NCBI GenBank assembly: GCA_030841035.1
Contig: JAVEDI010000070.1
Coordinates: 1-63,663 of the forward strand
Direction: 5' to 3'
DNA from: Actinomycetota bacterium
GTDB lineage: Bacteria; Actinomycetota; Actinomycetes; JACCUZ01
Length of the DNA stretch: 63,663 nucleotides
In this document: piece by piece, positions 58,794 to 63,216 of the stretch
Position numbering within the stretch: position 1 is the first letter of the stretch
Layout of the letters: every line of letters begins with the position of its first letter
Position numbers and translations under genes: made by a program
Notes under the pieces: generated by a model
What the model saw: the letters and a program-made list of their open reading frames with translations, nothing else
What the model was told of the DNA's origin: nothing
Databases searched by the model: none

Positions 58794-59363
58794 TCAGCCC
58801 TCGGCCAGCAGGTCGTCGACGTTCGCGGCACCGCTCTTGTAGCGACCGGCCACCTCTGCGGTCAGCTCGTCCATGACCCGCTGCACGGCCCGGCGGTCCT
58901 CGGACACGATGTGCTCGTAGCTCTCCAGCCGGCCCAGCGCCTCGCGGACCTCCTCGTCGGAGTGCCCCTCGACGTCGGAGACGGCGACATCGGCGATGAT
59001 CTGTTCCACACCACGGCGGTGCTCGTCGACCCGGGACGGCTCCACCCGCAGGTAACGGCCCAGCCCGTGGTCGTGGCGGCCCGAGTCGGCCAGGACCTCG
59101 GACAGGTGCTCGACGATCTTCTCGTCGATGGAGCCGTCGCCGTCGGCTCGGCGGGCCAGCTCGGCGCGCAGGATGTCCATGCGGCCCTGCAGCAAGCGGC
59201 GTACGTAGGACAGGTCGGCCTCCTCCTGCTCCGCCTCGTGCCGGAGGATCCGGACCTCGGCGAGCGGGAGCTCCGTGAGACCGGTGAGGAAGTCCGGGCC
59301 GAGCACCTTGTCGATGCGGCGGCGGCCGCCGGGCTGCACACCGCCATGGGCAGGGGTGGTCAT
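58794..59363 (-). CDS. rsiG: RsiG, c-di-GMP-responsive anti-sigma factor (of a WhiG-like sigma)
   Basis: A 189-residue helical protein. Both halves contain the RsiG c-di-GMP-binding signature E-x3-S-x2-R-x3-Q-x3-D: residues Glu48-Ser52-Arg55-Gln59-Asp63 and Glu150-Ser154-Arg157-Gln161-Asp165. In Streptomyces RsiG holds sigma WhiG inactive when loaded with c-di-GMP. No sigma factor gene is in this window. The two-motif arrangement indicates a protein that binds c-di-GMP through an antiparallel coiled coil. GGAGAG precedes the ATG. Confidence 0.9.
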   Translation of the reverse strand: MTTPAHGGVQPGGRRRIDKVLGPDFLTGLTELPLAEVRILRHEAEQEEADLSYVRRLLQGRMDILRAELARRADGDGSIDEKIVEHLSEVLADSGRHDHGLGRYLRVEPSRVDEHRRGVEQIIADVAVSDVEGHSDEEVREALGRLESYEHIVSEDRRAVQRVMDELTAEVAGRYKSGAANVDDLLAEG

Positions 59364-59451: not shown

Positions 59452-60309
59452 TCACGGTCGGCCCGCGACCGCCGCCGTACGGCGATTCTTCACCCGCAGC
59501 AGGGCCCGCGCGTCGTCGGTGCTCATCGGCGGTCGCTGCGCGAGCGCCGCGAGCTCGGCCGCGCGCCGCACCAGCTGCGCGTTGTCGGTGACCGGCCGGC
59601 CCTTGGCGAAGGTCACGGTGTCCTCCATGCCGACCCGCAGGTGGCCGCCGGCCGAGAGGGCCGCGAGGGCCACCGGCAGCGTCGTACGGCCGATGCCGGT
59701 GGCCGACCACGACGCACCCTGCGGCAGGGCCGCCACGGCCGCCACCAGGGCCTGCGCCGTCCCGGGCATCCCGCCGGGGACGCCCATGACCAGGTCGCAG
59801 TGGATCTGTCCCCCGTACGGCGCCCCGTAGCTGTCCAGCAGCCGGTGCAGCGCGGCGACGTGGCCCAGGTCGAACAGCTCGAACTCGGGCACGACCTGCT
59901 GGGCCTGGGTGCGCTGGTAGAGCTCGGCCATGAACGGCCACGGGTTCTGGAAGACGTCGTCGCCGAAGTTCACCGTGCCGCAGGTCAGCGAGCAGGAGTC
60001 CGGCTCCGCGTCGAGGACCCTCAGCCGGTCGTCGAACGGATCGGTGACCGCGCCGCCGGTGCTGAGCTGGACGAGCAGGGTGGTGGCCTCCCGCAACGCC
60101 TCGACGGTGTCGCGCAGCCGGGCCAGGTCGAGGGTGGGGCGGGCGTGGTCGTCGCGGACGTGCACGTGGATGAGCGCGGCACCGGCGGCCTCGCAGGCCT
60201 GACCCGTCTCGACCAGCTCGTCGAGGGTCACCGGCAGCGCGGGGACGGCCGCCTTGGCCGTCTCTGCTCCGGTCGGCGCTACCGTGATCAGCGTACGAGC
60301 GGCGCTCAT
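59452..60309 (-). CDS. Beta-keto acid cleavage enzyme (BKACE, DUF849)
   Basis: A 285-residue TIM-barrel enzyme of the BKACE family, which condenses a beta-keto acid with acetyl-CoA and splits it to a CoA ester and acetoacetate. The zinc ligands are in IHVHVRDD, and VGMEDTVTF carries the late Glu/Asp. The substrate cannot be read from the sequence; known members act on 3-keto-5-aminohexanoate or dehydrocarnitine. The ATG at 60309 begins MSAARTLITVAPTGAE; CACCAT lies 6 nt upstream. It diverges from the PATAN protein gene. Confidence 0.9.
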   Translation of the reverse strand: MSAARTLITVAPTGAETAKAAVPALPVTLDELVETGQACEAAGAALIHVHVRDDHARPTLDLARLRDTVEALREATTLLVQLSTGGAVTDPFDDRLRVLDAEPDSCSLTCGTVNFGDDVFQNPWPFMAELYQRTQAQQVVPEFELFDLGHVAALHRLLDSYGAPYGGQIHCDLVMGVPGGMPGTAQALVAAVAALPQGASWSATGIGRTTLPVALAALSAGGHLRVGMEDTVTFAKGRPVTDNAQLVRRAAELAALAQRPPMSTDDARALLRVKNRRTAAVAGRP

Positions 60310-60477
60310 GACTGCATGGTGCCATGACGGTGGCGCCGAGGGGGCAGACCGGGACAAGCCAGTGGCCGGGAGCACTCAACAGTGCGGCCGTTCGTGCCGA
60401 TGCCATCACTGACCCAGGTGGGTGAGTCGACCCGGTCGTCCGTTCACCTGACCCCTGACGTGAAGAAGGAGCCACCA

Positions 60478-63216
60478 GTGCCCGAGGGCGCCGTCCTTGC
60501 CGGAACCATCGAGTCGGTACTGCTCGATCTGGCTGGGCAGTCGGCGAGCGGTTGCCTGACGGTTCGCGACCAGGAGGGCGACCAGGCGGAGGTCTTCCTG
60601 CGGGACGGCCAGGTGTACGCCGTCGCGGTGCCTGGCCGGCGCACGATGCTGGGCGTCCGGCTGATGTCGCGCGGCGCACTGACGCCCGAGGCGCTGGCCG
60701 AGGCGCTGGAGATCCAGCGCACCGAACTGCAGGGCTGGCGGCTGGGCGAGCTCCTGGTGCACCTGGGGTACGTCGACCTGGAGGTCGTCGAGGAGTTCGT
60801 CGTCGAGCACCTCAAGGACGCGCTCGCCGACCTGCTGGGCTGGCCGATAGCCGCCTGGAAGTTCCGCAAGAACAAGAAGACCCGTCAGGACATTGCCCCG
60901 CCGACGCCGGTCGAGACCCTGCTGCACGACTTGCACGACCGGGCGACCACCTGGGAGACCATCCTGGCGGCGACCGGTGGACCCGACGCGGTCCCGACGC
61001 TCGCCTCCGGCGGGCCGGAGGACGACGCGGCGCTGGGCCCCAACGACTGGGCGCTGCTGTGCAAGGTCGACGACGCCCGCACGGTGGCCGACCTGGCCAC
61101 GGAGTGCGGCTTCACCTTGTTCGAGGCCGGGCAGGTGGTCATGCGCCTGAGCGCGGCCGGGCTGGTCAACGTGCCGGTCGACCCCACCACGGCGGCCGCG
61201 GCGACGGAGCTGGTTCTTCCGGTTCGCCCCCTGGACCAGGCCGAGGGCGCGGAGGCGGCCTCGGCGGCGGTGACCAGGGCGGCTCCCGACGAGGCCGCTG
61301 AGCAGCACAAGGCCGCCCAGGCCGCCCAAGCCGTTCAGGAGGCGCAGGCCGCCCAGGAGGCGCAGGCCCTGGCCCGCGCCGCTGAGCAGCAGGAGGCGGA
61401 TCGGGTCGAGCTCGAGCACGACCACGAGAAGCGCCGGACCGCCGAGCGGCGCGCTGGTGAGCGCCGCGAGGGCGACCGCCGGGCGGCCAAGCGTGAGGCG
61501 AACGAGAGGGCCGACGCGGAGGCACGCGCCAAGGCCGAGGTCGACGCACGCGCCAAGGCCGAGGTCGAGGCCGTAGCGGCCGAGAGAATCAGGCTGCGCG
61601 CGGCCGCCGACAAGCGCCGCCTGCAGGAGGCGGAGCTGGTCCACCGCCAGCTCGAGGAGCTCTCCACCAAGGAGGCCGAGCGGCGAGCCGCCCGCAAGGC
61701 GGCGCGCGAGGAGGCGCGCCTGCAGGAGGAGGAGAACGCCCGCGCCGCCGCCGTTGCCGCGCAGCGAGCCGAGCGGGAGGCGAACCGGGCGCAGGAGGCG
61801 GCGGAGCGAGCGGTCGCCGAGGAGCCGGCGTGGGCCGACCACGCCGCATGGCTGGCTGCCGCCCGAGTGGCTGCCGAGGCCGGCGCCTGGGAGGAGCACG
61901 CCGCGTGGCTCGCGCTCGAGCGCGCCGCTGCCGAGGAGCCGGCGTGGGCCGACCACGCCGCATGGCTTGCCGCCGCCCGTGCGTCGGTCGAGGCCTGGGC
62001 GTGGGCCGCGCACGCGACGTGGCTGGCCCGGGAGCGCGCCGCTGCCGAGGAGCCGGCGTGGGCGGATCACGCGGCCTGGCTCGCTGCCGCGCGGGTCGCT
62101 GCCGAGGCCACGGCCTGGGAGGAGCACGCCGCGCGGCTGGCCGCCGAGCGCGACGCCGCCGCGGAGCAGGCCTGGGCAGAGCATGCGCAGTGGCTGGCGG
62201 AGCAGCAGCTCGCGGCCGAGCAGGCCGAACGCGCCGAGGCCGCCCGGCTGGCGGCCGAGCAGGCGGCCCGCGAACAGGCGGAGCAGGCAGCGGCCGAGCA
62301 GGCCGCCCGCGAACAGGCCGAACGCGCCGCCGCCGAGCAGGCCGCCCGCGAGCAGGCCGAACGCGCCGCCGCCGCCGAGCAGGCCGCCCGCGATGAGGCC
62401 GAGCAGGCCGCCCGCGAACAGGCGGAGCAGGCAGCGGCCGAGCGACGCGCCCGCCAGGAGGCCCAGCGCGTGGCGGCCGAGCAGGCCGCCCGCGAACAGG
62501 CCGAACGCGCCGCCGCCGAGCAGGCCGCTCGCGAACAGGCCGAACAGGCAGCGGCCGAGCGACGCGCCCGCCAGGAGGCCCAGCACGTGGCCGCCGAGCA
62601 GGTCGCCCGCGAGGAGGCCGAGCGCGCCCAGCGGGAGCAGGCTGCTCGCGAGGAAGCGGTCCGCGAGGAGGCTCAGCGCCAGCAGGTGCGGCGCCAGGAG
62701 GCAGAGCGGGCCGAGGCAGAGCGCGCCGAGCACGAGCAGGCGGAACGCCTCGCCCGCGCCGAGCTGTCCCGTGCAGCGGCCGAGCCGCTCCCCCTCGCGA
62801 CGCCCGAGCCGGTCGCGCCAGAGCCCGCCGAGGGCGGGGCGGTCGAGGAGCCGGCCGTCGACTTCGCGGCCCGGGGCGAGATCGCGGCGCAGGCGGCCAA
62901 CCTGCTCAGCGAGCTCACCCGCGAGGCGGCCGCCGCTCCGGCGCCCGCCCCGGCGGCCGACGAGGAGCCCGCCCCACCGGCCGCGGCCGAGGGTGACGAC
63001 GTACGCGGCGGCCTGGCCGACGACGGCGGGCCGGCCCCGATGGTCAAGCGCGACCAGGCCGACACCGCCATGCTGCTGCGCGAGCTGTCCAGCCTGGGCT
63101 TCAGCGAGGACGACAGCCGGCCGTTCACCCCCCCGCAGAGCGTGCCGCGCGCGGCCCCACCGCCCGGCAACGAGCAGACCAAGAAGAAGCGCAAGGGCCT
63201 CTTCGGCCGGGGCTGA
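60478..63216 (+). CDS. PATAN (DUF4388) domain protein with long Ala/Glu/Arg coiled coil and W-H-W repeats
   Basis: A 912-residue protein of unknown function. Residues about 5-160 form a PATAN/DUF4388 domain ([21 protein letters not shown]...), known to bind response regulators in other bacteria; about 195-250 resemble a winged helix. Residues about 255-450 and 584-790 are Ala/Glu/Gln/Arg-rich coiled coil. Between them, 451-583 hold seven 19-residue repeats with consensus AW-x-x-HAAWLA. The C-terminus ends in a short conserved segment (about 855-885, [16 protein letters not shown]) and a basic tail [11 protein letters not shown]. The GTG at 60478 has AAGGAG 7 nt upstream. A scaffold or polar-organising role is inference only. 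Confidence 0.85.
61828..62226 (+). repeat. Seven 57-bp in-frame repeats within the PATAN protein gene
   Basis: Each 57-bp unit encodes 19 residues of the pattern A-W-[AE]-[DE]-H-A-x-W-L-A, with alternate units most alike (units 1, 3 and 5 share [13 protein letters not shown]; 2 and 6 share AWEEHAA). The alternation shows that a two-unit block was duplicated. The DNA identity is high enough for slippage or unequal crossing over. Confidence 0.85.

Follow-up and report, generated by a model that had tools for sequence, protein, structure and literature searches.

The locus analysed here raises the question of what is done by a PATAN protein with a long, repeat-bearing helical arm, whose gene stands beside that of a c-di-GMP-dependent anti-sigma factor homolog, rsiG. 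The window is the whole 63,663-nucleotide stretch of DNA that was analysed, and its relevant features are collected in Table 1. An open reading frame is present where a sequence-only reading of this DNA had placed it, with the PATAN head that the reading proposed, and orthologs of the same family (f1) start at the same VPEG in the alignment. DUF4388 is the sole Pfam match of the protein at E up to 1. No receiver domain was found by Pfam at that threshold, and the protein is thus not of PATAN-REC type. We propose that it may be a cytoplasmic type IV pilus-motor adaptor, positioned at the pole or membrane, controlled by RsiG-WhiG and made together with the pilus, a role to which we assign a probability of roughly 0.6. 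Much of the following turns on features that are additional to the sequence-only reading: the promoter, the link to pili, the LLRELSSLG motif, the MshEN-like insert and the winged-helix-like segment.

Table 1 Features of the rsiG-PATAN locus, in window coordinates.
Feature	Position	Strand	Residues	Evidence or remark
rsiG, twin-motif c-di-GMP-dependent anti-sigma factor homolog	58794..59363	-		Pfam RsiG PF22802, E 2.5e-33, two stretches
BKACE (beta-keto acid cleavage enzyme) gene, lying between rsiG and PATAN gene	59452..60309	-		Pfam BKACE, E 5.3e-89
WhiG/FliA-like promoter CTCAA-N16-GCCGATG (predicted)	60375..60402	+		One of only two exact genome matches
PATAN-helical-scaffold gene	60478..63216	+	912 aa	ORF, GTG start, AAGGAG ribosome site 60466-60471
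PATAN/DUF4388 domain	60529..60957	+	18-160	Pfam PF14332, E 2.2e-11, 44.3 bits (cutoff 25)
MshEN-like helical insert within PATAN	60649..60801	+	58-108	NCBIfam NF053729, 38.6 bits (cutoff 38)
Winged-helix-like segment	61030..61179	+	~185-234	LLCKVDxxRxVADLAxECGFTxFEAGQVVxxLxxAGLV; conserved in 27 orthologs; fold assigned by eye
Ala/Glu/Arg/Gln helical region	61273..62784	+	~266-769	
Seven 19-residue W-x-x-H-x-x-W-L repeats	61813..62211	+	446-578	
Conserved C-terminal motif (LLRELSSLG)	63064..63099	+	863-874	
Basic tail	63181..63213	+	902-912	Similar tail in every family with complete C-terminus except f29

The two RsiG stretches fit the twin-motif form of this anti-sigma factor (PMC8325347). 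RsiG-WhiG, which is described there as unique among sigma/anti-sigma pairs in being gated by c-di-GMP, controls pili in Rubrobacter. rsiG lies divergently just upstream of the PATAN gene at all 24 evaluable orthologous loci, drawn from 14 families, where a locus counts as evaluable if the ortholog contig is long enough to show the upstream neighbour. The BKACE gene occurs in the same place in many orthologous loci and is absent from others. The sequence-only reading had noticed the RsiG neighbour and called any link speculative; the neighbour is there, and its constant divergent position, with a WhiG-type promoter in common, speaks against that caution. In the openly accessible papers searched, the rsiG-PATAN pairing looks undescribed: DUF4388 surfaced in only one of them, whose subject is nitrite reductase, and the text of the RsiG-WhiG paper contains neither DUF4388 nor the gene neighbours (PMC8325347). 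One ortholog, L053 (JAJAYQ010000125.1), is filed as a Spirochaetaceae MAG. Its organism label is probably wrong, because it carries an actinobacterial rsiG-PATAN locus at 80% identity.

The predicted promoter is shared with a pilus operon. The exact motif CTCAA-N16-GCCGATG has two copies in the 3.95-Mb genome. One stands upstream of the PATAN gene; the other, on contig C77, precedes by 87 bp the Roadblock gene with which a type IV pilus operon begins, and within that operon pilT is immediately preceded by a copy with one mismatch. The core TCAA-N16-GCCGA precedes 25 of the 27 orthologs, with a chance expectation of about 0.0015 per sequence, and the ortholog footprint always reads CTCAA and usually TGCCGATG. 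A coding origin of this footprint was ruled out, as its distance to the start ranges from -69 to -163 and covers all three frames. Across 60 relatives the motif is far commoner than a reversed-pattern control. Exact hits number 105 in genomes that have RsiG or pili; 18 of these are at the rsiG-linked PATAN gene, and 17, the window's own genome counted, fall no further than 1.5 kb from pilus genes or from a pilus-cluster PATAN paralog. Copies in family f28, at G034:C2:113174, G051:C10:501857 and G034:C1:871306, precede pilM or a second pilT by ~80-110 bp; this family has RsiG and pili and gave no DUF4388 match.

The GCCGAT core of the motif matches WhiG/FliA promoters. Against the published WhiG consensus (Rubrobacter; TAAA / GCCGATAA) the motif agrees at 9 of 12 positions with a spacer of 16, which is over the two mismatches allowed in PMC8325347; the differences are the -35 element (TCAA), the spacer and the end of the -10 element. 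Since the -35 element and the spacer depart from the Rubrobacter consensus, WhiG dependence is something that we infer. The genome encodes both WhiG (286 bits) and RsiG. Because the PATAN gene adjoins rsiG and has the rare promoter of the pilus operon, its product is probably a pilus regulator controlled by the switch.

The operon on C77 runs in the order Roadblock, DUF4388 paralog, Ras-like GTPase, PilB (MshEN), PilT, PilC-like, prepilin-like genes and PilM, so that type IV pilus motor genes are present in the genome. At G000:C77:22993-29291 (L105, L106), Roadblock/LC7, the DUF4388 paralog and the Ras-like GTPase form a conservon-like trio before PilB. PATAN genes have been found near MglA GTPases (PMC4316618), and Ras-like GTPase and Roadblock genes, which here flank the DUF4388 paralog, are also those of MglA/MglB and the actinobacterial conservons (PMC4316618, PMC13343842). 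In contrast to conservons, the annotated part of the pilus cluster contains no CvnA kinase or DUF742 protein, and the PATAN gene of the window lies outside the operon. Across genomes PilT accompanies the PATAN gene (26 of 27 genomes, against 14 of 32; p=1e-5), as does RsiG (p=4e-7), both statistics ignoring kinship among the genomes.

These data also bear on a different role, in which the protein would act within the RsiG/WhiG switch itself, binding RsiG or WhiG (both helical) and tuning sigma release, with no part in the pilus. No feature of the locus is more conserved than the adjacency to rsiG, which suits such a role, as would a partner gene autoregulated from the switch's own promoter. 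However, 11 of the 37 RsiG-positive genomes do not have the PATAN gene, its presence tracks PilT, and its PATAN relatives act on pilus motors; we consider this role improbable. Among these RsiG-positive genomes, G024 and G044 are without both pilT and the PATAN gene. Several others do have PilT and yet no PATAN gene, which, like the position of the gene outside the pilus operon, speaks against the adaptor role.

The PATAN relatives in question are regulators that act on the pilus motor PilB1 (PMC7690835, PMC9090330). The domain had been called response-regulator-binding in the sequence-only reading, which does not agree with the studied cyanobacterial cases, where PATAN is itself part of the response regulator and contacts PilB1 (PMC7690835). 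Our protein shares with the cyanobacterial PATAN-CheY regulators PixE, PixG and LsiR (PMC7690835) the PATAN/DUF4388 domain and a link to type IV pilus motor and c-di-GMP physiology. In contrast to these, it is actinobacterial and rsiG-linked, and instead of a receiver it has a long helical arm with 19-residue repeats, a C-terminal motif and a basic tail.

The head, in which DUF4388 is matched in all 27 orthologs, suggests how contact with a motor might be made. A helical insertion in PATAN was reportedly described in 2006. NF053729, the c-di-GMP motif of MshE-type domains, matches 26 of the 27 orthologs at E<=0.01, and a profile of the 27 ortholog heads searched against the PDB retrieves Thermus PilF (7.3e-14), Vibrio cholerae MshE (1.8e-5) and several PilB structures. 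By sequence, the helical insert is firmly identified as a homolog of the c-di-GMP domain of pilus motor ATPases. The two-motif, four-helix sequence of MshEN/GSPII in PilB, PilF and MshE (PMC5013675, PMC11731258) is recognisable in it, without the ATPase fusion, with a spacer of 7 and with at least one ligand residue altered. This suggests that the PATAN insertion is an MshEN-like module, at least in the rsiG-linked actinobacterial family, which would help to explain contact between PATAN proteins and pilus motors. AlphaFold2 modelled the head from three input sequences with a pLDDT of 44.

Whether such an insert would bind c-di-GMP, adding post-translational control to the transcriptional control exerted by RsiG, depends on its ligand site. 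A complete MshEN set comprises R, L, G, L, L and Q in both motifs with a spacer of 5. The window protein, although homologous to the 53-residue MshEN module, does not have this set: motif I reads MLG...L...L..Q and motif II RLG...V...V..H. L10, G11, L25, L29, Q32, R38, L39 and G40 are retained, while R9 is replaced by M, L54 and L58 by V and Q61 by H, and the spacer is 7. The second Gln (Q61) is retained in most other families. The firm homology and the eight retained residues would favour a true receptor, as would PilF GSPII-B, in which nM binding persists when the first Arg is replaced by Leu or Lys and single Gln mutants still bind at 0.5-1 uM (PMC11731258). On the other hand, the window family has His at the second Gln, Val at both motif-II Leu positions and the longer spacer, the NF053729 score is barely above its cutoff, and in the non-binding PilF GSPII-A a Q-to-H exchange, together with loss of an Arg, contributes to the loss of binding (PMC12002112). 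In the profile alignment the first two motifs of PilF GSPII-C are also 7 residues apart, and this domain binds at ~500 nM; since a third motif is present in it, it is an unsure precedent for the 7-residue spacer. We regard receptor function as quite possible, while leaning against it.

Beyond the winged-helix-like segment, the protein continues as a long Ala/Glu/Arg helical region, as originally proposed. A, E, R and Q make up 78% of residues 266-805, and AlphaFold2 predicts residues 420-600, modelled alone, as all helix (mean pLDDT 78), with breaks near three EEP prolines 38 residues apart. The seven repeats also hold up: their W-x-x-H units start at residues 452, 471, 490, 509, 528, 547 and 566, a spacing of exactly 19, six times over, whereas in 20,000 shuffles that preserved composition runs reached 2 at most. 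W0 and H+3 are present in all seven units and W+6 in six (R in unit 547). No second copy of the repeat was found elsewhere in the genome, and a PDB sequence search with the repeats gave no match.

At the DNA level the repeats are a 57/114-bp tandem array with units alternating in two types. Such an array would fit a low-complexity spacer produced by replication slippage, whose function is length only, as would the wide variation in length between families, several of which have no repeats. However, dN between repeat pairs is mostly well below dS (0.02 against 1.2-1.3 for type-A units); with synonymous sites near saturation, this means that the protein sequence of the repeats has been held. The exact 19-residue phase, with near-invariant positions across four families, is equally hard to reconcile with slippage, and a mere spacer is an explanation to which we give little credence. 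The W-H-W repeats are real and under protein-level selection.

The sequence-only reading would have failed had orthologs been wholly without the repeats and shown a disordered linker in their place, and here the result is divided: four of 15 families (f1, f20, f24 and f27) keep the 19-residue period, with 5-14 complete copies, while other families have a variable linker instead. Spacing in the four is 19 or multiples of it, with a few 23- or 30-residue steps. Families f11, f13 and f9 have AWxEY units in place of W-H-W, and f10, f5 and f23 have neither type; in repeat-less families the linker is helical or acidic and of variable length. Since these other families keep head and tail without the repeats, the repeats are a lineage-specific elaboration of a variable arm and not part of the core. 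The PATAN tree, in which deep branches are weak, does not recover a single origin of the repeat and requires at least 3 changes. In the f9 ortholog L025 the head is followed, at residues 253-273, by a distinct pentapeptide repeat, A-W-E-P-S.

Across 82 units collected from the orthologs, A-1 occurs in 82, W0 in 81, H3 in 80, E-4 in 80, L7 in 71, R11 in 65 and W6 in 64, the counts for W and H reflecting a seed pattern that favours them. At 3.8 residues per turn (19/5), E-4, A-1, W0, H3, L7 and R11 line up along one side of the helix, and we read this predicted stripe as a helix-packing face. It had been suggested earlier that the repeats might form a metal-binding or stacked array, and the near-constant His and Trp, subject to the same seed bias, would suit such an array or a heme/aromatic-stacking one. 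Neither Cys nor any second conserved ligand accompanies the His, the region is predicted to be helical, E-4, W0, H3, L7 and R11 are confined to ~95 degrees of the helix surface, as residues of a packing stripe would be, and many families have no repeats at all, which makes an array of this kind highly improbable.

The far end of the protein is more constant than the arm. TAxxLRELxxL is present in most aligned proteins with a complete C-terminus, most of the others being cut by contig ends, and two f5 proteins read SxxLMRELSSL. In almost all families whose C-terminus is complete, the basic tail, already remarked upon from the sequence alone, is conserved. Complete orthologs vary widely in length between families, from ~370 to 940 aa, and the shortest, which belongs to f2 and measures 372 aa when counted from the aligned start, retains the head, LLRELSSLG and the tail RRKRGLFGGH. 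In f29, two short DUF4388 genes stand in tandem beside rsiG (L060:9276-11512), the second with LRELKSLGD as its C-terminal end and no basic tail; this arrangement suggests a local duplication.

Taken as a pilus-motor adaptor, the protein could work as follows. Promoter and synteny suggest that at low c-di-GMP RsiG would release WhiG, and that WhiG, using promoters of one kind, would then transcribe both the PATAN gene and the pilus operon. Judging from its family, the PATAN head may then, together with the four-helix MshEN-like insert that it carries, engage the PilB/PilT motor or the Ras-like GTPase/Roadblock pair of the pilus operon. From its sequence, the long helical region would form a rod or coiled coil of lineage-variable length, on which W-H-W units, where present, might provide a regular packing face for self-association, and LLRELSSLG and the basic tail may tether the far end to the membrane or a partner. 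The proposed partners, localisation and direction of effect are taken by analogy from relatives (PMC7690835, PMC9090330, PMC11580455, PMC4316618). A similar layout, a small signalling head with a large coiled coil, is seen in FrzS of Myxococcus xanthus, which acts on pili and whose coiled coil alone is sufficient for polar localisation (PMC11580455); its head is a pseudo-receiver and not PATAN, and the likeness is one of layout only.

As in the RsiG-WhiG system of Rubrobacter and Streptomyces (PMC8325347), an RsiG homolog, WhiG and GCCGAT-type promoters at pilus genes occur together here; in contrast to that system as described, the PATAN gene is a constant divergent partner of rsiG. A bolder version, which we hold tentatively and think rather unlikely, is that the insert is a working c-di-GMP receptor, placing the pilus under double control through RsiG-WhiG transcription and motor engagement, and that the W-H-W helix is a new positioning repeat. 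If this were true, one second messenger would control the pilus twice from one locus, through a protein that the switch itself expresses. The conserved partner gene and its promoter point to a link between RsiG-WhiG and type IV pili in many families of the class; this would extend the reach of the switch outside Streptomyces and Rubrobacter, and it provides a list of testable targets.
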